Origin: Planctomycetaceae bacterium
GTDB taxonomy: Bacteria; Planctomycetota; Planctomycetia; Planctomycetales; Planctomycetaceae
NCBI GenBank assembly: GCA_019636285.1
Contig: JAHBXV010000031.1
Location: 1 to 64,000 of the forward strand
DNA: 64,000 bases
Direction: 5' to 3'
Part shown: positions 38,088-47,875 of the stretch, piece after piece
Layout of the letters: each line of letters starts with the position of its first letter
How positions within the stretch are numbered: the stretch's first letter is position 1
Notes under the pieces: generated by a model
The model's database searches: none
What the model was told of the DNA's origin: nothing
What the model saw: the letters and a program-made list of their open reading frames with translations, nothing else
Made by a program: the position numbers and the translations under genes

Positions 38088-38114
38088 CAGCGCTCCCCGT
38101 TGGGTCGCGGCTAG
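38088..38114. repeat. 23-bp repeat at gene ends, copy 1
   Basis: The core CGCTCCCCGTTGGGTCGCGG followed by CTA (38091-38113), preceded by CAG. The last three bases are the TAG stop (read on minus) of the 38111-41341 gene. Copies are at 41375-41397, 42176-42198 and, inverted, 43084-43106. Confidence 0.85.
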
Positions 38115-41100
38115 TTTGCCGGTGACGTGACGCGGAAGTCGTGCCGGCTTTCCCGTCCCGTCGCTCCTTCGCGAACGCTGATCGTCCACGCGCCGGGGAC
38201 GTCGTTCGCGGCAATCTGCAGGTTCAACTTCAGTTCTCCTCCGGCCGCACCATAGAACCCGCTGAATTCGGCCATTCGCCCGTGGGCATCCTGGATCTCG
38301 ACCTCCACCGGAATGACTGCATCGACCACCTCGCCGTCTTGCGAGGTAACGCGAACCGTCACCGGCAGCATGCCACCCCGCCGCACGACATCGGCCGCAT
38401 CAATCTGGACTTGCTCGATGGGCCGCGACGCCACGAGGTAAATCTCGCCGCCGCCCGGTTCCAGATTGACCGGCCACTTCAGAATTCCGCCATCGCTGGT
38501 CGCCGGGATCGACCGCGCGCGCCGCAGGTCATAGACATGCCCCGCATCGCGACGCAGATGAACCGTTCCCACGCTCGGCAGCCCGACTTCCTGCACCAGA
38601 CCGTGCTGCCCGACATAGGTTCCCGCTTCGCGATGGTCGTTCACCAGGAAAACATAGTCGCTGGTCTCGAACACGCGACGTCGCGGAATGATTTCGGCAT
38701 TGCCCGTTTCCACGACGCGCGAATAGCGCTGGTCGAGGGCCACTCGCAGTTTCGCCGCGTTGGCCAGCAGAGTCGCCTTATCGTCGGCTGCCTTTCGGGT
38801 CCGCGTGAATCGCGGAATCACAATGTCGGGCTTGATGGCGGGAACCAGGTTCGGATCGCCGATAATAATCCCGCCCCGCTTTTGAAACGCCAGAATCGCG
38901 TCCGCCACCGATCGGGTGAGGACATCGCAATCGACCAGCACGAGAACCTTGTACGCATCGAGACCATCCTTGAGCAGCGTTTCCTCGAAGATGACTCGCG
39001 GCTGCAACTGGGCATGCAGCAGCGTCAGAAACGCTTCGTCATGCGAATAGCCATAGCTTCCCCGGCGGGCAAACATCTGCGACGTGAAGCTATCGAGGTA
39101 GGCGACATCGGTGGGGTCGTCCTGAACTTGCAAGAGCGTCGGCCCCAATCGCGGCAGCACTTCCGTGTGCAATCGGCGGAACTCGGTCTGGGTATCCGGC
39201 TGCGTGAACTTGTAGGCGTGGGTGCCATCGGTTTCGACGAGCGATGACCAGCCGTGATACATGAGGCCCGCGACGGGTCGCGACAGCTTCGTCCAGAACG
39301 ACTGCCGCAGGTGCATCGGCGAGATCGAGATATACGCCGCATCCGGATCGTGATCGTCGAACGGGTTGCCGATGGCATCGGGCCCCGTCTTGATCGGCGC
39401 GCTCGATGACCGATACCAGAAGAGCTGCGTCATCTTCATCACCTTTGGCTTCTGCGGCGACGCAGCCGACATCGCGAAGACTTCATCGGCGAAGTACCCC
39501 ACCCGTAGCGGAGACGGCTCGGTGTAGGTCCACTGCCCCAGCACGTCGACCAGTCCGCCGCTGCCGCCAATGCTCGCCACGCGAATTGCCGGGTCGTACC
39601 ACGTCCAGATATCGTCGCGGCCGGTCGACTTGAGCCCCTTGTGAACAGCGGTATGCAAACCATTCCAGCCATCCCCCACCGTCCAGAACCAGCGGTAATA
39701 CTTCAAAATCGGATGGTCGTCGGGAATGACGCGATCGGCAGGAAAGTCCTTAATGCCGGTCCACTGCACGCCGTTTTTAATGACGACGTCCTCGGGAATA
39801 TCGGTCCCCGCGAACTTGCGGTAAGCGTCACGATCGAACTCCGAAAAACTCGGCTGGCTGCTATCCCGCACTTCCGAATCAATCAAGGCAGCCTGCAAGG
39901 CCGGATGATCGCCAAAAGCCCGCGCGACGCTGATGCCGACGTTCTCGCAATACTCATAGAGACCAGGCAGAGACGCATTCAGATCGACTCGCTCATACGG
40001 TTTGCCGGTCCGATCGACTCGCTGTAGCGATTTTTCATTCACCAGCGCATGGCCCGGCGCGAAGTTCGCCGCGATGCCGAACTGATGAGCCAGCGCGAGA
40101 TCAAGCATCCGCCGAACCCCCTCGGCTCGTGGTCCGCTAATGGGATCGATCGGCTTCCCCGCCTTCCAGATGGCATATTCCTCGGGTCGGAACCCCAGGC
40201 TATGCGTGAACCCCAGGTCCAAAAGTCGCGGCAGCTCCTCGGCGAATCCTTCCGGTCCGCCAATCCCCCACATCGTCACCGGCATGCGGTGCGGCAACGG
40301 TCGCGACACCACATGAATCGGCTGCCGGGCCTCCCGCGTTGTCGGAATCTCGCCGGGAACTTCCAGCCGCAACACGATGTCATAACGATCAGGACGAAGC
40401 GTCGTGTCGAAGACAATTGGAATTGCCTGCACGCTCGCTGCCACGATTTCGGGGAGTTCGGTCGATAGCGCCGGTCCCGCGCCCATCACCGTCAGGCGAG
40501 CTTTAGTGAGGGGCTGATCGCTGAGGTTGTGAATCTTCGCGACGATCGGACCCGCCTCTTCAAACCGCAGATAGCTCGTGCGCCGCGTGGCAACCTCCAG
40601 CTTCGCCCGGCCGAATTCACGAACGCCGTTCGTCAGCCGGACCTGATCGAGCACGCCGGGAAAGCCGCCATAATTGCTCCCCGTTCGATCGGCGATCGAC
40701 AGCCCCAGCGGCCCCGGTGAAATCGCCCGCCGCGCCGGCGACGTCCGGCCACCAAACGCTTCGCCATTCCGATAGAAACGGACCGTACCGGCGGCATCGT
40801 ACGTCACGGCCACATGCTGCCAGACATCGGCCGGCCACTCCGCCGGTTCCGACTGAAACGCTTCCGAATCGGTCCCAAACCCCAGATTCAGCACCAACGC
40901 CCGCCGCTTCGCCCCGGCCGGTGCCAGGTAGAACTGATAGTCATTGTGCGACACGTACTTCTTGCAGAGAAGATAACAATACCCCGTGGCGGGCATGTCC
41001 GCCGCCGGCTTGATCCACATATCGATCGTGAAGGCTCCCGCTGGCGACAGCGAAGGATGCGCCTTCACGAACGCCGCATGCCGCTTGTCCTCGACGGGAT

Positions 41101-41341
41101 AACCCGGAAACGACCGCAGCCCGCCGCCAAACTTGCCGTCCGCGACCGCCTCGGCCCCGAACAACTGCAGCTCATGGCCATGCCCCGACCGGTCCTCCAG
41201 CGGATTGTCAGCCGAGAACTGCCAGCAGGCCACGACATGCGGCTGCCGCAGCGCCTCATCGGCGTACTCGCGCGTCCAGTTGTCGAACGAAGGGTCCGCG
41301 GCAACGGCGGCCGCGAGCAGCATCCAGGGGGAAGACATCAT
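38111..41341 (-). CDS. Very large exported protein with LamG domain, glycoside hydrolase-like
   Basis: This is a 1076-residue protein. A short signal-like N-terminus (MMSSPWMLLAAAVAADP) is followed by a LamG/concanavalin-like domain (about 40-220: ACWQFSADNPLEDRSGHGHEL, FTIDMWIKPA, WQHVAVTYDAAGTVRFYRNG). Residues about 320-700 look like a TIM barrel of the beta-galactosidase/GH42-like type (MTMWGIGGPEGFAEELPRLL, LGFTHSLGFRPEEYAIW), with acidic SEVRDSSQPSF a candidate catalytic area. A glutamine-amidotransferase-like domain is suggested at about 760-850 (YKVLVLVDCDVLT, GGIIIGDPN), then C-terminal beta domains. The exact family was not recognised. It is last of the ABC transporter block, pointing to breakdown of an imported or surface glycan. 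Its stop codon is part of a 23-bp repeat. Confidence 0.7.
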   Translation of the reverse strand: MMSSPWMLLAAAVAADPSFDNWTREYADEALRQPHVVACWQFSADNPLEDRSGHGHELQLFGAEAVADGKFGGGLRSFPGYPVEDKRHAAFVKAHPSLSPAGAFTIDMWIKPAADMPATGYCYLLCKKYVSHNDYQFYLAPAGAKRRALVLNLGFGTDSEAFQSEPAEWPADVWQHVAVTYDAAGTVRFYRNGEAFGGRTSPARRAISPGPLGLSIADRTGSNYGGFPGVLDQVRLTNGVREFGRAKLEVATRRTSYLRFEEAGPIVAKIHNLSDQPLTKARLTVMGAGPALSTELPEIVAASVQAIPIVFDTTLRPDRYDIVLRLEVPGEIPTTREARQPIHVVSRPLPHRMPVTMWGIGGPEGFAEELPRLLDLGFTHSLGFRPEEYAIWKAGKPIDPISGPRAEGVRRMLDLALAHQFGIAANFAPGHALVNEKSLQRVDRTGKPYERVDLNASLPGLYEYCENVGISVARAFGDHPALQAALIDSEVRDSSQPSFSEFDRDAYRKFAGTDIPEDVVIKNGVQWTGIKDFPADRVIPDDHPILKYYRWFWTVGDGWNGLHTAVHKGLKSTGRDDIWTWYDPAIRVASIGGSGGLVDVLGQWTYTEPSPLRVGYFADEVFAMSAASPQKPKVMKMTQLFWYRSSSAPIKTGPDAIGNPFDDHDPDAAYISISPMHLRQSFWTKLSRPVAGLMYHGWSSLVETDGTHAYKFTQPDTQTEFRRLHTEVLPRLGPTLLQVQDDPTDVAYLDSFTSQMFARRGSYGYSHDEAFLTLLHAQLQPRVIFEETLLKDGLDAYKVLVLVDCDVLTRSVADAILAFQKRGGIIIGDPNLVPAIKPDIVIPRFTRTRKAADDKATLLANAAKLRVALDQRYSRVVETGNAEIIPRRRVFETSDYVFLVNDHREAGTYVGQHGLVQEVGLPSVGTVHLRRDAGHVYDLRRARSIPATSDGGILKWPVNLEPGGGEIYLVASRPIEQVQIDAADVVRRGGMLPVTVRVTSQDGEVVDAVIPVEVEIQDAHGRMAEFSGFYGAAGGELKLNLQIAANDVPGAWTISVREGATGRESRHDFRVTSPAN

Positions 41342-41371
41342 CGGTGGGGATTCCAATTCATTGAATGAAGA

Positions 41372-41398
41372 CAGCGCTCCCCGTTGGGTCGCGGCTAG
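41372..41398. repeat. 23-bp repeat at gene ends, copy 2
   Basis: CAG plus the 23-bp core and G, identical to copy 1 over 27 bp. It lies immediately after the TAA stop of the 41400-42143 gene (minus), separated by one base. Confidence 0.85.
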
Positions 41399-41399
41399 A

Positions 41400-42143
41400 T
41401 TATTCGCGCCGTCGCGCGAGGATGATCTCTTTTCTCGGGCGATCAATCCCGATTAAACCCTCCACGCCATCGACGGCGATCCCCTGCCCCGTAAACGGGA
41501 CCGACAGGGTTTCCACGTGCTCAAGCACGGTTCCGGCTTCCGGGAGTTGCAGTACAAACACGACCGGATCGTCGTGACCCGTGGCGAGCAGTTTGTCCTT
41601 CCACCAAAAGCCTCCCGAGATGCTGTAACGCCCGAGTTCAGAGATTACGGATTTGGGATAGGTCCACTTCCCAACTTCCCGCCACTCCGAATCGTATTTC
41701 ACGAGCGCGGTCCGGGCATTGTCGTCCCCATAACGGGCGAACGTACACCACCAGTAACCATCGTGCAGGACCGCCCAGGTGAGACTGCCATGCATGGTTT
41801 CGCCGAAGTTCTTGTACTCCGTGAGCTCCATCGTCGCGGGATTGAGCACCTTGATCTCGCTGCGTTCCGGCGTCTTCGGGTAGTTCGAATGCGCGCAGTA
41901 CAGCTTGCCGTCGTGAAAGAAACCGCTGTTGAGATGCGTCGCGGGACCGGTGCTCACGGCGAGACGTTTTCCCGTCGTGCGATCATATTTCGCGATCCGA
42001 TTTCCAGCGATCGCGTAGAGGTCGTCACCATTGGACGCCGCCGCCTGGATCGCTTCCGGCGCGGGGATGACCTGCGACTTCTCCCAACCCGTCGGCGACT
42101 GGACCGTGAGGATGGCGAACAGGACGATCGTCGCGCAGCGCAT
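41400..42143 (-). CDS. Exported propeller-like protein of unknown function
   Basis: This is a 247-residue protein. A signal-like N-terminus (MRCATIVLFAILTVQSPTGW) is followed by short repeated blades: DDLYAIAGNRIAKYDRTTGKRL, FHDGKLYCAHSNYP, SEIKVLNPATMEL and KLLATGHDDPVVFVLQLP. This looks like part of a beta-propeller. No catalytic motif is visible. It is placed between phzF and the giant LamG gene, with the 23-bp repeat on both sides, so it is probably co-transcribed with them. The start was set at the signal peptide. Confidence 0.65.
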   Translation of the reverse strand: MRCATIVLFAILTVQSPTGWEKSQVIPAPEAIQAAASNGDDLYAIAGNRIAKYDRTTGKRLAVSTGPATHLNSGFFHDGKLYCAHSNYPKTPERSEIKVLNPATMELTEYKNFGETMHGSLTWAVLHDGYWWCTFARYGDDNARTALVKYDSEWREVGKWTYPKSVISELGRYSISGGFWWKDKLLATGHDDPVVFVLQLPEAGTVLEHVETLSVPFTGQGIAVDGVEGLIGIDRPRKEIILARRRE

Positions 42144-42175: not shown

Positions 42176-42198
42176 CGCTCCCCGTTGGGTCGCGGCTA
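42176..42198. repeat. 23-bp repeat at gene ends, copy 3
   Basis: Same core; its final CTA is the TAG stop codon of the phzF-family gene on the minus strand. The following bases AGGGGGCG match those beside copy 4. Confidence 0.85.
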
Positions 42199-43002
42199 AG
42201 GGGGCGAATCGAGGAGGGTGCCTTCCCAGATGGTGACGGCCTGACCACCGAGTTTCACGCGGTTCCCCGCGATGCGCAGCCGCAAAATGCCGATCCGTTT
42301 GGAGACCTGTTGCGCCAGAAGCTCCGTCTTGCCGAGTTGACCGGCCCAGTATGGCCCCAACGTGCAATGAGCCGAGCCGCAAACGGGGTCTTCGTTGATC
42401 CCCACCGCCGGGGCGAAGAACCGCGAGGCGAAATCATACGGCGGTTCGTGCGAGCGAGCCGTCACCATGATCCCGCGAGTCGGCACGTCGCGCAGCAGCG
42501 CATAGTCGGGACTGACCGCTCGCACGGCGTCGGGCGATTCGACGACGACCAGGTAATCGAACTTTGATCGCCCCACGAATAGAGGCTTGGGAATGCGAAG
42601 CGCTACCAGCAATTCCGGCGGCGGTTCAACTTCTGTGGCGGGTAGCGCGGGGAAGTCGAGTTCCAGGAAATCCCCGTCCACCGTGCAGGTCAGCACGCCG
42701 CTCCGGGTGTGATAACGCAGCGGCTGATCGCGCGGAACCAGCCCGGCCGAGAGGATGGCGTGCGAGGTGGCCAGCGTCGCATGGCCGCACAAATCAACTT
42801 CAACCTCCGGCGTGAACCAACGGAGTTCGAGACCATCATCCAGCGGACGGACGAACGCGGTCTCCGAAAGATTCATCTCGGCCGCCACGTTCTGCATCCA
42901 GCCAACATCCGCTTCGCGGTCCAGCCAGCAGACGGCCGCGGCATTCCCGCCAAATGCCCGATTCGTAAACGCATCCACGGTCCAGCACCGCACCCGCGGC
43001 AT
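42196..43002 (-). CDS. PhzF family isomerase/epimerase-like protein
   Basis: This is a 268-residue protein of the diaminopimelate-epimerase fold. Family motifs are AFTNRAFGGNAAAV, MNLSETAFV (catalytic Glu47), LRWFTPEVEVDLCGHATLA and INEDPVCGSAHCTLGPYW. Members isomerise phenazine precursors or unknown small acids; the true substrate here is unknown. ATG 43002 was chosen because AAGGGG lies 6 bases upstream. It sits downstream of the sugar ABC transporter ATPase. The stop codon TAG is contained in the 23-bp repeat. Confidence 0.92.
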   Translation of the reverse strand: MPRVRCWTVDAFTNRAFGGNAAAVCWLDREADVGWMQNVAAEMNLSETAFVRPLDDGLELRWFTPEVEVDLCGHATLATSHAILSAGLVPRDQPLRYHTRSGVLTCTVDGDFLELDFPALPATEVEPPPELLVALRIPKPLFVGRSKFDYLVVVESPDAVRAVSPDYALLRDVPTRGIMVTARSHEPPYDFASRFFAPAVGINEDPVCGSAHCTLGPYWAGQLGKTELLAQQVSKRIGILRLRIAGNRVKLGGQAVTIWEGTLLDSPP

Positions 43003-43082
43003 ATCACGCCCCTTCAACAACCCGCCACCTCGTGCCGCCGCCCATCATCCCGAATTCAACGCCCCCTGTCACCCCGCCCCCC

Positions 43083-44621
43083 CTAGCCGCGACCCAACGG
43101 GGAGCGTTCTTCCCCCATCGCCGCCGCCATGATCGCCGCTTCGCTGAACTCGTCCCGCCCCAGTTCAGCCGTCAATCGCCCTTCGCACAAAACCAGAATC
43201 CGGTCGCACACCGTCAGCAGTTCCGGCAGTTCGCTCGACGTGAAGAGAATCGCCAGTCCGTCACGACAGAGGCGGTCGATGAGTTCATAGATTTCCGCCT
43301 TCGCGCCCACATCGATGCCGCGTGTCGGGTCATCCAGAAGAAGCAGCTTCGGCCGGGTCCGCAGCGCGCGGGCAATCAGGCATTTCTGCTGGTTGCCGCC
43401 GCTCAGCGAGAGAATCCTGGCCTCGCGCCCGGCCGTTTTTACACGCAGGGCCGCAATCGACTCGTCCGCCGCCAGTTGCTCGGCTCCCGCATTAACCAGC
43501 CCCCCGCGACGCGTTTCCGCCAGCGACGACAACGTGATATGTTCGCGGACCGACAGTTCGGGAAAGATGCCGAGCCGCTTGCGGTCTTCGGTCACCATCG
43601 CCACGCCGGTCGCGATCGCCTCTGCCGGATGCGTGAACCGCGCCGGCTGACCATCAAGCCGGATGTCTCCGACAAACGGCTCATCGCTGGCTCCATACAA
43701 ACATTCGAGCAGTTCGGTCCGCCCCGCTCCCATCAGTCCCGCGACACCGACGACTTCCCCCGCGCGAAGGTCAAAAGAGATATCCCGCAGCCGCCAGCCC
43801 CGCGCGTGGCCGAGCCACTCCCGCGAAAGATTCCTAACCTGTAAGACCACTTCGCCCGGAGTCCGCGCGGATCGATTCGTCGCACGTCCCACGTCGCGGC
43901 CAACCATCAATTGCGTGATTTCGCGCGGCGACGTCTCGGCTCGTGGCAACGTGCGGATTACGCGGCCGTCTCGCAGCACGGTGATCGTATCGGCCAGGCG
44001 AAAGACTTCATCCATCTTGTGCGAGATATAGAGGATGGTCGTTCCCGCCTCGCGTAACTGAGCAATCACGCGAAACAGCCGTTCGGTCTCAGCTTCGGTT
44101 AACGCCGAGGTTGGTTCATCCATAATCAGAATGCGGCTGTTGAAGGAAATCGCCCGCGCGATCTCGACCAGCTGCTGGTCGCCAATCCGCAGCGAGCGGA
44201 TGCGATCGTCCGGTCGAAGCGGACACTCCAAACGTTGGAAAAGCTCCTGCGTCGCGCGAGACATCGCCGCGTCATCAAGGAACCCGAACGGCGACCGGCG
44301 TTCACGACCGAGAAACAGGTTCGCCGCAGCCGTCAGATCGTTCACCAGGTTGAGTTCCTGATGAATAATCCCAATCCCGCGCTCGGCTGCGTCGCGCGGC
44401 CCCGTCAGATGCAACTCCTCACCCGCCAGCCGCAGCGAACCGGTGTAATCGACCAGCACGCCCGACAGAATCTTCATCAGCGTGCTTTTCCCAGCCCCGT
44501 TCTCTCCGCAGATGGCGTGAAAAGAGCCCGTGGCGACCGAAAAGCCGACATCCTCCAGCGCGACCACCCCGCCAAAGCGTTTGCCAACCCGATCAAACTC
44601 AATCAGCGGCGTGGTCGACAT
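43083..44621 (-). CDS. rbsA: Sugar ABC importer ATPase (RbsA/MglA type)
   Basis: This is a 512-residue protein with two ATPase domains in tandem, as in ribose/galactose importers. The first has Walker A GENGAGKST (39-47), Walker B LIMDEPTSALT and a relaxed signature (LRIGDQQLVE). The second has a degenerate Walker A (GLMGAGRTEL), signature LSGGNQQK and Walker B LLLDDPTRGIDVG. One catalytic site may be inactive, as in RbsA. It works with the downstream-numbered permease gene (its 5' neighbour) and the lipoprotein gene at 46.5 kb. A GTG at 44648 overlapping the permease stop is an alternative start. The last residues (RSPLGRG) and the TAG stop are encoded by the inverted copy of the 23-bp repeat. 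Confidence 0.93.
   Translation of the reverse strand: MSTTPLIEFDRVGKRFGGVVALEDVGFSVATGSFHAICGENGAGKSTLMKILSGVLVDYTGSLRLAGEELHLTGPRDAAERGIGIIHQELNLVNDLTAAANLFLGRERRSPFGFLDDAAMSRATQELFQRLECPLRPDDRIRSLRIGDQQLVEIARAISFNSRILIMDEPTSALTEAETERLFRVIAQLREAGTTILYISHKMDEVFRLADTITVLRDGRVIRTLPRAETSPREITQLMVGRDVGRATNRSARTPGEVVLQVRNLSREWLGHARGWRLRDISFDLRAGEVVGVAGLMGAGRTELLECLYGASDEPFVGDIRLDGQPARFTHPAEAIATGVAMVTEDRKRLGIFPELSVREHITLSSLAETRRGGLVNAGAEQLAADESIAALRVKTAGREARILSLSGGNQQKCLIARALRTRPKLLLLDDPTRGIDVGAKAEIYELIDRLCRDGLAILFTSSELPELLTVCDRILVLCEGRLTAELGRDEFSEAAIMAAAMGEERSPLGRG
43084..43106. repeat. 23-bp repeat at gene ends, copy 4 (inverted)
   Basis: Reverse complement of the core; read on the minus strand it encodes RSPLGRG plus a TAG stop at the end of rbsA. 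Confidence 0.85.
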
Positions 44622-44644
44622 GAACTCTTTCCCGCCAGTGAGTG

Positions 44645-46249
44645 TCACCGTTCGACATACTCAACACGCACGCCCGACAACCGACGTTCCAGACGGGTCG
44701 CCGCGCCGCGTGTCACCGGGAGCGACAGTCGCACATGCCGCAATCCGCGTCCCAACTTCTCCAGGTCAGCGACACTCGTATCAGTGATCCGAGTCTGGCT
44801 CAGATTGAGTTCCGCCACGACCGGGAAGAACCGCAGCGTCGATACGAGCGACTTCAGGTCGGCATCGGTGAATGACGTCGGGGACAGATCGACCAGGATT
44901 CCAGCGTCGTTCCGCGTGATGGTTCCACCAGCCGACTGGATGAGGGCTACGGCCCGGTTCTGCTGCCACGCGGGATAGCCGCGTTCGAGCGCGACGAAAC
45001 TCACGGCGGCAGCAACAAGCCATGCCAGCCAGAAGACGCCCCGACGCCGGGCCCACCAGTCTGTCCGCATCGAGAGCATCAGCCCCGCCACCAGCCCGCC
45101 GGCCCACAGCGAAAGCGGGAGCGCATCAACGCTTGTCCGGCCGCCCAGCAGCTTCGTGCCAATCAATGCCGTTAAAGCCATCGTGAGAATCGTGAGATTC
45201 AGGATCGCGACGGCTCCCAGCGGACCGCTTAACAACTTTCGCGAACCGCTGCTTCCCGCCCGAGCGAACGTGACGGCTCCGACGACGAGGACACCGACGA
45301 TCAACCCTTCGTAGACATCGGCTCCGGTCTTGATGATCTTCGCCACCGCATCGATCACCGACCGCAAGAAGATCGTTCCCAGCAGCGTGCCGGGGACCGT
45401 GCCGACGCCCCCTTGCAGACTGCACCCGCCAACAACGGCCGCCGCGATCGCATTGAGTTCTGCCCCGCGGCCGAGCACCTGCGGATTCGCCACGCCCGTA
45501 TCGAGCATGGCGAGCATCCCGGCGACCGACGACAGCACAGCGCTCAGGCTATAAGCGAGCCATTTGAGGCCATCGGTCCGAATCCCGGACAGCTTCGCCG
45601 CCTGCTCGTTCCCCCCCAGGGCATACACATGTCGACCAGTCACGGTCTTCGCCAGCAAGACCCACAACACGGCTGCTGTTATTAACAACAACACCGCCGG
45701 GATCCAGACCGAACCGGCCACGTAGCGAAAGCGGGCATCGGCGATGTTGATCTGCGTGCTCATCCCGCCCAGCGTCGCGGCGGTGGCTCCCTCGCAAATC
45801 GCCCGACCGAGACTCCGCAGGCCAACGAGCGTTCCCAGCGTGGCGACAAACGGCGGCAACCCGACCACCGTGATGAGCCACGCATGCAGACTTCCAATGA
45901 GAAACCCGACCACCAGTGTCCCGCAAACAGCCAGCACAATCGCCCACAACGGCAACGGCTGGCTGGCCACCATCTGCTCAGGCACGAGCAACAGCAGCAG
46001 CACCGCGCACGTCGTACTGCTGAAGGCCATGACCGAACCGGCCGAGAGGTCGATCCCGCCGGAGATAATGACAACCGCCGCCCCCAGCGCCAGAAACCCT
46101 AGGAGAGTCGTCTGCCGCGTGAGATCAATGGCCGACGTCGCCGGATTCACCCAGTAATTGTGCTGACTATCCAGCACAGCCGTCAGCACCCAAACGCCAA
46201 CGATCGCCCACAGCAAATTCGTTTCATGCAGGGCAATGAGGCGGCGCAT
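44645..46249 (-). CDS. rbsC: Sugar ABC importer permease (RbsC type) with extra membrane and LRR-like tail
   Basis: This is a 534-residue permease. The first ~330 residues match BPD_transp_2 permeases: TTLLGFLALGAAVVIISGGI, GGIDLSAGSVMAFS, GLPPFVATLGT, YALGGNEQAAKLSGI, and GAELNAIAAAVVGGCSLQGG with GTVPGTLLG. Family members usually stop near residue 320-340. Here about four more helices follow (about 345-440), then a soluble tail with a leucine-rich-repeat pattern (FTDADLKSLVSTL, VAELNLSQTRITDTSVADLEKL). The tail may sense or bind. It is separated from rbsB by a repeat element and abuts rbsA. Start ATG 46249. Confidence 0.9.
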   Translation of the reverse strand: MRRLIALHETNLLWAIVGVWVLTAVLDSQHNYWVNPATSAIDLTRQTTLLGFLALGAAVVIISGGIDLSAGSVMAFSSTTCAVLLLLLVPEQMVASQPLPLWAIVLAVCGTLVVGFLIGSLHAWLITVVGLPPFVATLGTLVGLRSLGRAICEGATAATLGGMSTQINIADARFRYVAGSVWIPAVLLLITAAVLWVLLAKTVTGRHVYALGGNEQAAKLSGIRTDGLKWLAYSLSAVLSSVAGMLAMLDTGVANPQVLGRGAELNAIAAAVVGGCSLQGGVGTVPGTLLGTIFLRSVIDAVAKIIKTGADVYEGLIVGVLVVGAVTFARAGSSGSRKLLSGPLGAVAILNLTILTMALTALIGTKLLGGRTSVDALPLSLWAGGLVAGLMLSMRTDWWARRRGVFWLAWLVAAAVSFVALERGYPAWQQNRAVALIQSAGGTITRNDAGILVDLSPTSFTDADLKSLVSTLRFFPVVAELNLSQTRITDTSVADLEKLGRGLRHVRLSLPVTRGAATRLERRLSGVRVEYVER

Positions 46250-46485: not shown

Positions 46486-47619
46486 TCAACTCCCCGTCAA
46501 GCCATTCTGCTCCAGCCAGCCCTTGAACGCCTCCAGCGTCAGCACTTCCACGTTTGAGCCGTAGTCGGCCGACTTCGCGGGGGACTGGTCGTTGGGGATG
46601 ACGACCTTCAGGCCCGTGTCCAACAGGTCTCCATCGGGTTGGCCGTGCCGGGGGTACATCGATGCGATCGTTTCCTGATCCTTGGCGACCAGAGCATGCA
46701 GCAACCGAACCCCGTCGTAACCCATCCGGTAAGGGTTCTGCACAACCAGCGCGTCGATCTGGTTGCCGGCCATCGCCTGAATGGCTAACGGCTCGGCGTC
46801 GAAACAGACGACCGTGTACTGGCTCTTGTCGAGCTTTCGCTCGCGAACCACGTCCACGATGGCCGGCGCGTTGTACGACCAGATCCCGACCAGGGTCCGC
46901 AGGTCGGGATTGTTGATGAGTGCGTTGCGGACATTCTCGCGGGCGCGGGAATCGTCGTTTTCGTCCTGCATCGAATCCTTCGACGTGAAGCCGGAACCGG
47001 CTCCTTGCGCGAATCCGCCAATCCGCTCGATCGCATTCTGCGCGCCGGTCCGGCCGACAAACGTCACATATTCGCCGCCGTCCGGTCTCAGAGCGGCCGC
47101 CGTTTTCCCGAGGACCACGCCTCCCGCCAGGTTATCGGTCCCGATGAAGGCAAAGCGGGCATCGCGAAACTTGTCGCGATCGACGTCGGAATCAATCGTG
47201 ACGACGGCGATTCCCTTCTTCTGCAAGGCGCGCAGTTCTTCCGCGATCGCGGAATTCGCCGCATCAATGGCGGAAACGCCGATTCCCGCCACGTCGGCCT
47301 GGCTGCCGAACTGCCGCAGCTTGTCGAGCTGTCCCTGCGGCGTCCCATCGTTGACTTCCATCACCCCGACGAAGCCCTTCGCCTCCAGGTCGAGTTCTCG
47401 ATTGGCGTCGAGAATGCCGGCCCGGCAGGCATCCCAGTAGGGGCTGTTCCCATTGGTCAGAACAATCAGCCGTTTGCGGGCCGTCGAGTCGGACGGCGCG
47501 GTGCCGGAAGTCGTCGCGGAGCCATCCGACGGGGCCGCCGCCTGGGGAATTTCAGGACCGCAACCGACGGCGAACACCGCCAGCGTGCCGAGTGTGAGGA
47601 ACCAGGAAGAACCGCGCAT
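46486..47619 (-). CDS. rbsB: Sugar ABC importer substrate-binding lipoprotein (RbsB type)
   Basis: This is a 377-residue periplasmic-binding-protein (peripla_BP_4 fold). The lipoprotein signal MRGSSWFLTLGTLAVFAVGC has its lipobox at AVGC. The mature protein starts with a Ser/Thr/Pro-rich linker, then KRLIVLTNGNSPYWDACRAG, the QADVAGIGVSAIDAA hinge region, IAVVTIDSDVD and VVCFDAEPLAIQAMAGNQIDALVVQNPYRMGYDGV, all typical of RbsB-like binders. The sugar is not identifiable. It precedes rbsC and rbsA, with a repeat element of about 215 bp between rbsB and rbsC that might tune expression, as hairpins do between binding-protein and permease genes in other operons. Confidence 0.92.
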   Translation of the reverse strand: MRGSSWFLTLGTLAVFAVGCGPEIPQAAAPSDGSATTSGTAPSDSTARKRLIVLTNGNSPYWDACRAGILDANRELDLEAKGFVGVMEVNDGTPQGQLDKLRQFGSQADVAGIGVSAIDAANSAIAEELRALQKKGIAVVTIDSDVDRDKFRDARFAFIGTDNLAGGVVLGKTAAALRPDGGEYVTFVGRTGAQNAIERIGGFAQGAGSGFTSKDSMQDENDDSRARENVRNALINNPDLRTLVGIWSYNAPAIVDVVRERKLDKSQYTVVCFDAEPLAIQAMAGNQIDALVVQNPYRMGYDGVRLLHALVAKDQETIASMYPRHGQPDGDLLDTGLKVVIPNDQSPAKSADYGSNVEVLTLEAFKGWLEQNGLTGS

Positions 47620-47875
47620 GGACGTCAATCCGGAAGGGTGTCGGTCTGGGTGTGAATACGAGCCGAGAGAATTTCTAAAGAACTGAATCAAAATAGGCCG
47701 GAGCCAATTGACGGTCAAGCACCCGGCCCCGCGACCCATCGGTTCACTCGCATGTGATGGCGGGTTGGGCTAGTCTGGCTCTGTCGAACATTCATCGCAA
47801 CTGGGAATCTTCGCAGCACCGACTGAGACTTCCGGCGAGCGACCTGCCAGCCCCATGAAAACGAGGCCGTCCACG
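47620..47875. promoter_or_regulatory. Divergent control region of the rbs block and the oxidoreductase gene
   Basis: 256 bp between the divergent starts of rbsB and the Gfo/Idh/MocA gene must contain both promoters. No clear -35/-10 pairs or operator palindromes were found by eye. GAGG at 47863-47866 serves the oxidoreductase. Confidence 0.4.

Follow-up and report, generated by a model that had tools for sequence, protein, structure and literature searches.

In ABC importers of the RbsABC type the translocator is normally bare, and the binding protein on which transport depends is a separate one. Why, then, should the translocator of one such importer end in a leucine-rich repeat (LRR) domain, and what might that domain be doing there? 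The question is raised by a gene in the window (the whole 64,000-nucleotide stretch of planctomycete DNA analyzed here), whose parts and partners, all on one strand, are the following.

44645-46249, minus strand: the fused permease gene, an RbsC-type permease with a three-helix extension and an LRR tail (534 amino acids)
45260-46249, minus strand: the permease core, residues 1-330, predicted type II ABC importer fold (Pfam BPD_transp_2 and model)
45065-45226, minus strand: extra helices 1 and 2, residues 342-395 (model helices 342-367 and 376-395; alignment)
44984-45040, minus strand: the hydrophobic part of extra helix 3, residues 404-422, confined to LRR-bearing forms (model, alignment, hydropathy)
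44648-44977, minus strand: the predicted LRR domain, residues 425-534, with a membrane-proximal Y-P-x-x-Q and a mostly acidic position 480 (model, profiles)
46486-47739, minus strand: the upstream partner, a Peripla_BP_4 substrate-binding lipoprotein (Pfam E 1.7e-37; lipobox-like AVGC by eye)
43083-44648, minus strand: the downstream partner, an RbsA/XylG-type double ATPase (Pfam, NCBIfam)

The fused gene is an uninterrupted open reading frame of 534 codons, running from an ATG start at 46249 down to a TGA stop at 44645; together with its two partners on the same strand it reads as an ordinary importer operon. (Two neighbors are noted in passing. The ATPase gene is followed on the same strand, at 42196-43020, by a gene for a PhzF-family isomerase, which turned up in none of the 80 related loci described below, the best 80 of 132 relatives. 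The 1111-residue protein encoded at 38111-41446 has a laminin-G-like domain in its N-terminal part and, near its C-terminus, a weak MG2 match that falls below cut-off.)

Where does the ordinary permease end? Pfam BPD_transp_2 covers residues 41-324 (E 2.1e-36; 125.9 bits against a cut-off of 26.8), and Pfam matches nothing else in the whole 534 residues; the NCBIfam sugar-permease matches all stop by residue 334. Residues 331-534 are therefore extra. All 11 NCBIfam matches fall under their equivalog cut-offs, the best being GguB (140.6 bits against 450), with the ribose permease equivalog at 120 bits against 398. Since none of the named substrate-specific NCBIfam equivalogs (ribose RbsC, galactose MglC, allose and others) reaches its cut-off, the protein is classed as RbsC-type, and no substrate is assigned. 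A search with the family profile returns no solved close homologue of the permease at E up to 1. Residues 1-333 of the predicted model superimpose on BtuC (1l7v; Z 19.1, rmsd 4.9, 285 residues aligned; Foldseek matches realigned with VIA-align), and the core is accordingly described here as having a predicted type II, BtuC-like importer fold.

The initial annotation saw an RbsC permease lengthened by about 200 residues that included roughly four helices. The lengthening stands, as the permease matches just described attest; the helices number three, both in the AlphaFold model (342-367, 376-395 and 400-439) and as hydropathy peaks (starting at residues 347, 376 and 405). The full-length model was built from 33 sequences (the window's own and 32 of the best 80 of 132 relatives) and has a mean pLDDT of 85.2. 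In it the third helix runs on unbroken from the membrane segment to residue 439.

How much of this extension is new? Related loci were collected from named genome contigs, the best 80 of 132 relatives being kept (all locus counts out of 80, 62, 60 or 18 refer to this set). A long LRR tail is present in 18 of the 80 (L079-L096); in the other 62 permeases the extension is short. Two of these are truncated where their contigs stop (L106 and L127) and were excluded from short-form counts, structure alignments and trees. The 60 complete LRR-less relatives are 396-462 residues long and every one has two hydrophobic segments after the core; all 18 LRR-bearing forms have three. These counts hold at two thresholds; loosening the criterion to a third gives four segments in one LRR-bearing form. 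On alignment, extra helix 1 matches up between the LRR-bearing and LRR-less forms, and helix 2 does so less closely. Some more distant relatives (for example L010, L025 and L028, 331-344 residues) have no extension at all. The idea that all of the extra helices are novel thus had to be given up, for the LRR-less relatives already have two; because two helices are ordinary in this planctomycete permease subfamily, the new step is the third helix together with the LRR. (A related 518-residue permease from another family, at L029:757-2310, appears by eye to carry a large, mostly hydrophobic insertion within its core in place of a C-terminal extension.)

The tail itself had been described, from its LxLxxTxITD pattern, as LRR-like, and structure prediction bears this out: residues 431-530 are modelled as a compact domain, with block-mean pLDDT values of 90-95, in which strands (443-446, 451-454, 478-483, 505-509, 528-532) alternate with helices (462-472, 490-502, 514-523). 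Structural alignment splits the model into two separate domains, residues 1-333 and 424-534 (VIA-align on Foldseek matches), and the second of these matches solved LRR structures: coupling factor B (3dze; Z 10.4, rmsd 2.7, 106 residues aligned), LegL1 (4xa9; Z 9.9), NOD2 (Z 8.6) and ribonuclease inhibitors (Z 7.7-7.8). Modelled alone from 18 sequences (pLDDT 87.9), the tail again matches LRR structures. The family profile matches the solved LRR protein 4q62 at E 1.3e-5. No Pfam LRR model recognizes the window's tail on its own at E up to 1; LRR_6 does match 14 of the 18 aligned tails within that limit, the best at E 7.9e-5. As modelled, then, the tail is a compact alpha/beta LRR domain of few, degenerate repeats. 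The junction between core and extension (residues 301-340) is the part of the model with the lowest confidence (pLDDT 57-69), so the model does not predict how the LRR is positioned against the core.

Two features stand out among the most conserved in the tail that lack an obvious structural role. One is the membrane-proximal Y-P-x-x-Q segment (Y in 16, P in 17 and Q in 16 of the 18 aligned tails); the other is position 480, Glu in 17 of these tails and Asp in the remaining one, and, among 22 fused proteins from the genome search described next, Glu in 20, Ser in one (L047) and Asp in one (L055). Glu is also the commonest residue at the equivalent position of other LRRs, occurring there in 13 of 68 motif instances in the other fetched DNA, a six-frame count in which some instances may be due to chance.

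A search of planctomycete genomes for the same fusion finds it repeatedly. With a tail profile of 207 positions and up to 18 candidates scored per genome, 22 of 170 family genomes, distributed over six genera, carry the extension in a single open frame, with matches over the whole or nearly the whole length of the profile (E 7e-42 to 1e-94). One genus, g34, contributes 15 of the 22 (15 of 15 searched); g25 contributes three of three, and g1 (the window), g2, g21 and g68 one each. Another genome, G116, has pieces of the extension on two contigs. Twelve of the 18 fused loci are titled Schlesneria, and the 22-genome and 18-locus counts are not independent because the two genome samples partly coincide. 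Broader samples, which themselves contain family members and in which at most seven candidates were scored per genome, yield no full-length match outside the family (397 class and 392 phylum genomes): 21 class genomes reach E 1e-14 or better with the tail profile, of which 20 are family members and the other has a separate 233-residue LRR frame covering profile positions 75-196, and the three matches in the phylum sample all lie within the family.

Selection on the tail was gauged from the 12 pairs of lowest core dS out of 153 possible pairs. In seven pairs with core identity of 94-95% and core dS of 0.5-1.1, dN/dS is 0.06-0.14 for the LRR against 0.03-0.06 for the core; in four more distant pairs the LRR value is 0.23-0.52, and for the pair of the window with L080 it is undefined. 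With LRR dS above 1 in several pairs, these ratios are rough. Identity is 36-44% in the LRR against 70-74% in the core for the three most distant of the 12 pairs. The comparison indicates a tail that is under purifying selection among close relatives, yet evolves faster than the core.

In a tree of 92 rows based on the core only, 18 LRR-bearing rows, the window's among them, form a starred clade (99/97) that nests among two-helix forms, and the LRR-bearing L094 and L095 group with short forms. A 34-row tree, made from a chosen subset of these rows without the near duplicates L088 and L096, needs three changes of LRR presence, and forcing every fused row into one clade, a grouping that was named after an earlier tree had been seen, is not rejected (p-AU 0.0645). 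One gain followed by losses and several separate gains are thus both compatible with the data. Stand-alone frames matching helix 3 and the LRR also occur in the family (for example L060, profile positions 74-202), which makes the new part look like a TM-LRR module that joined a two-helix permease. A stepwise gain of domains is suggested: core, then two-helix extension, then third helix with LRR.

On which side of the membrane would the LRR lie? The termini of BtuC, and thus the ends of a BtuC-type core, we take to be cytoplasmic; because three helices succeed a core with its C-terminus on that side, the LRR should end up outside. Charge points the same way: over 18 sequences the loops predicted to be cytoplasmic average 3.4 and 3.3 K+R, the predicted outer loops 2.0 and 1.7, a modest bias, and 59 of the 60 complete LRR-less relatives have more K+R than D+E among their last 15 residues. 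Six of 11 distinct LRR relatives inspected in the window's own genome also look, by eye, as if they were exported. Taken together, the number of helices and the distribution of charge make it probable that the LRR is periplasmic.

What could a periplasmic LRR do for an importer? The initial annotation had offered substrate sensing, contact with the lipoprotein and attachment to the cell surface as conceivable roles; for an LRR on the outer side, contact with the binding protein or with some other protein of the envelope would be possible. The explanation that we favor, with roughly even confidence, is that an RbsABC-type translocator has acquired a helix and an LRR that most likely serve as a protein-docking module on its outer face. 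The steps would be these: 1) The fused permease would be the translocation subunit of a standard importer of type II fold for a sugar or a similar small solute. 2) A membrane helix and an LRR of the planctomycete T-x-I-T-D type would have been added onto a pre-existing two-helix extension. 3) The LRR would lie in the periplasm, in two copies per permease dimer. 4) There it would dock a protein, either holding and orienting the substrate-binding lipoprotein or tying the importer to another protein of the envelope. 5) Transport itself would proceed as in other importers. The conservation of Y-P-x-x-Q and of an acidic residue at 480, a position on the side with which LRRs usually bind, suggests a specific protein partner, for which the binding lipoprotein, the nearest candidate, is our best guess; the more rapid evolution of the LRR implies that the putative contact is not strongly constrained.

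Alternatively, helix 3 and the LRR might only anchor or space the importer in the envelope (on peptidoglycan, on the surface or in a protein lattice) and leave transport unaffected, a reading that we regard as possible and on balance doubtful. LRR proteins of this type are numerous, with tail-profile matches at E up to 0.001 in all 170 family genomes, and the six of 11 distinct LRR relatives inspected in the window's own genome that look exported start, by eye, with a lipobox- or signal-peptide-like segment (L065, L067, L070, L072, L075, L078). (The other five show no such start: also by eye, L074 starts with a zinc-ribbon-like segment, L071 reads as protein-kinase-like and L068 as like an enzyme of the formylglycine-generating type, L066 has no clear character, and no frame was found in L073.) The faster evolution of the LRR would likewise suit a mere spacer. 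A mostly acidic position 480, however, suggests a specific partner, and the general Pfam and structure-model comparisons detected no domain besides the LRR in the tail.

A more ambitious version of the docking idea would make the paired periplasmic LRRs a regulatory platform, where a partner bound to the concave face at Glu480 would gate either transport or the docking of the binding protein. If this rather improbable reading were true, the importer would double as a sensor of the envelope, a "transceptor"; we know of none of that kind among ABC importers.

What if the tail were cytoplasmic instead, and acted on the ATPase, for example by recruiting one that is encoded elsewhere? The disposition of ATPase genes speaks for this idea. 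A close RbsA-type ATPase lies within the locus in only six of the 18 fused loci; the fetched stretch has none in the other 12, as against five of the 62 LRR-less loci (L099, L106, L123, L142, L148). (The comparison is subject to there being too little downstream DNA for judging L090, with 236 bases, and L106 and L142, with almost none. The match in fused L093, 33% identical, is to a different ATPase. Some ATPase match is found in 59 of the 62 LRR-less loci, those in L099 and L148 being weak, at 32-36%.) Moreover, among 23 genomes whose tail is fused or split, 13 have an ATPase 55-70% identical that is encoded apart from the permease; the fragmented G166 offers at best an ATPase 42% identical. 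In six of these 13 genomes the match starts near residue 158. (In four of the detached ATPases, L164, L175, L176 and L177, the first nucleotide-binding half is interrupted, after the signature motif and before Walker B, by an insert of low complexity that varies among them.) Against a cytoplasmic LRR stand the three helices past a cytoplasmic core end, which put the tail outside, and the ATPase adjoining the permease in nine of the 23 genomes, the window's and eight others. LRR-less L099, L123 and L148 also lack a close neighboring ATPase, so that detachment as a consequence of the LRR is not supported; since L099 and L123 belong to the group that neighbors the fused clade, detachment seems rather to be linked to lineage. 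We consider a cytoplasmic LRR improbable.

Still less credit can be given to the LRR as a second, built-in solute-binding domain feeding the channel. Importers with linked extracytoplasmic binding domains do exist (GlnPQ and OpuA), but the fold here is a small LRR of few repeats, not that of a periplasmic binding protein, and a separate binding-protein gene is retained upstream in 16 of the 18 fused loci (61 of the 62 LRR-less ones). In the exceptions, L083 and L088, about 5 kb of upstream DNA yields no such gene. The retained gene likewise disposes of the LRR as a replacement for the binding protein. In a clustering of neighboring genes that might have given a clue to the substrate (the 80 loci and a slice of the window; the 25 largest clusters, each of at least four loci), what the fused loci have in common among the clusters listed is permease, binding protein and ATPase, and no conserved catabolic gene was recognized among them. 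(Four fused loci also have a gene for a ParA-like ATPase close to the permease, at L079:7013-7852 in one of them.)

Finally, the fusion might be an artefact, whether of a frameshift (which the initial annotation, coupling it with absence of the extension from all relatives, had named as refuting its reading), of misassembly or of chance read-through from one gene into another. This would fit the occurrence of homologous TM-LRR and secreted LRR proteins as separate genes, and is rendered practically negligible by the same one-frame architecture in 22 genomes of six genera, two of them single-contig assemblies (G001, G174), and by the low LRR dN/dS of close pairs.

How does the fused permease compare with what is already known? 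RbsC-type permeases (BPD_transp_2; E. coli RbsC and MglC) are like its core in type II fold and in their Peripla_BP_4 and double-ATPase neighbors, but the NCBIfam models matched have 321-375 positions, whereas the fused protein has about 205 residues more, in the form of three helices and the predicted LRR. Its closest LRR-less relatives on the core tree are the planctomycete RbsC-like permeases of 396-462 residues, mostly with the same binding-protein and ATPase neighbors; these have two helices and a K/R-rich end, whereas the third helix and the LRR belong to the fused form. The tail shares the L-x-L-x-x-T-x-I-T-D pattern and an alpha/beta LRR fold with the CC-type LRR subfamily with an ITD motif, among whose members proteins from Gemmata and from Rhodopirellula baltica are said to be counted (PMC2244805); unlike CC-type LRR proteins, it has few, degenerate repeats and sits on an ABC permease. 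GlnPQ and OpuA are likewise translocators with an extra domain that is extracytoplasmic, as the LRR probably is; their linked domain is substrate-binding, whereas the fused permease has an LRR fold and keeps its binding protein separate. No description of an LRR-fused ABC permease was recognized in searches of open-licence papers.

A conserved, lineage-specific LRR is an unusual accessory for a translocator. The domain architecture found here is real and conserved, and the transporter that bears it is of a well-known type; its structure has good support from prediction, and its function is inferred. Members of the Planctomycetales and Pirellulales are described as having an enlarged periplasm (PMC7716846). 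One can think of the LRR-bearing translocator as a concrete handle on how planctomycetes organize uptake.
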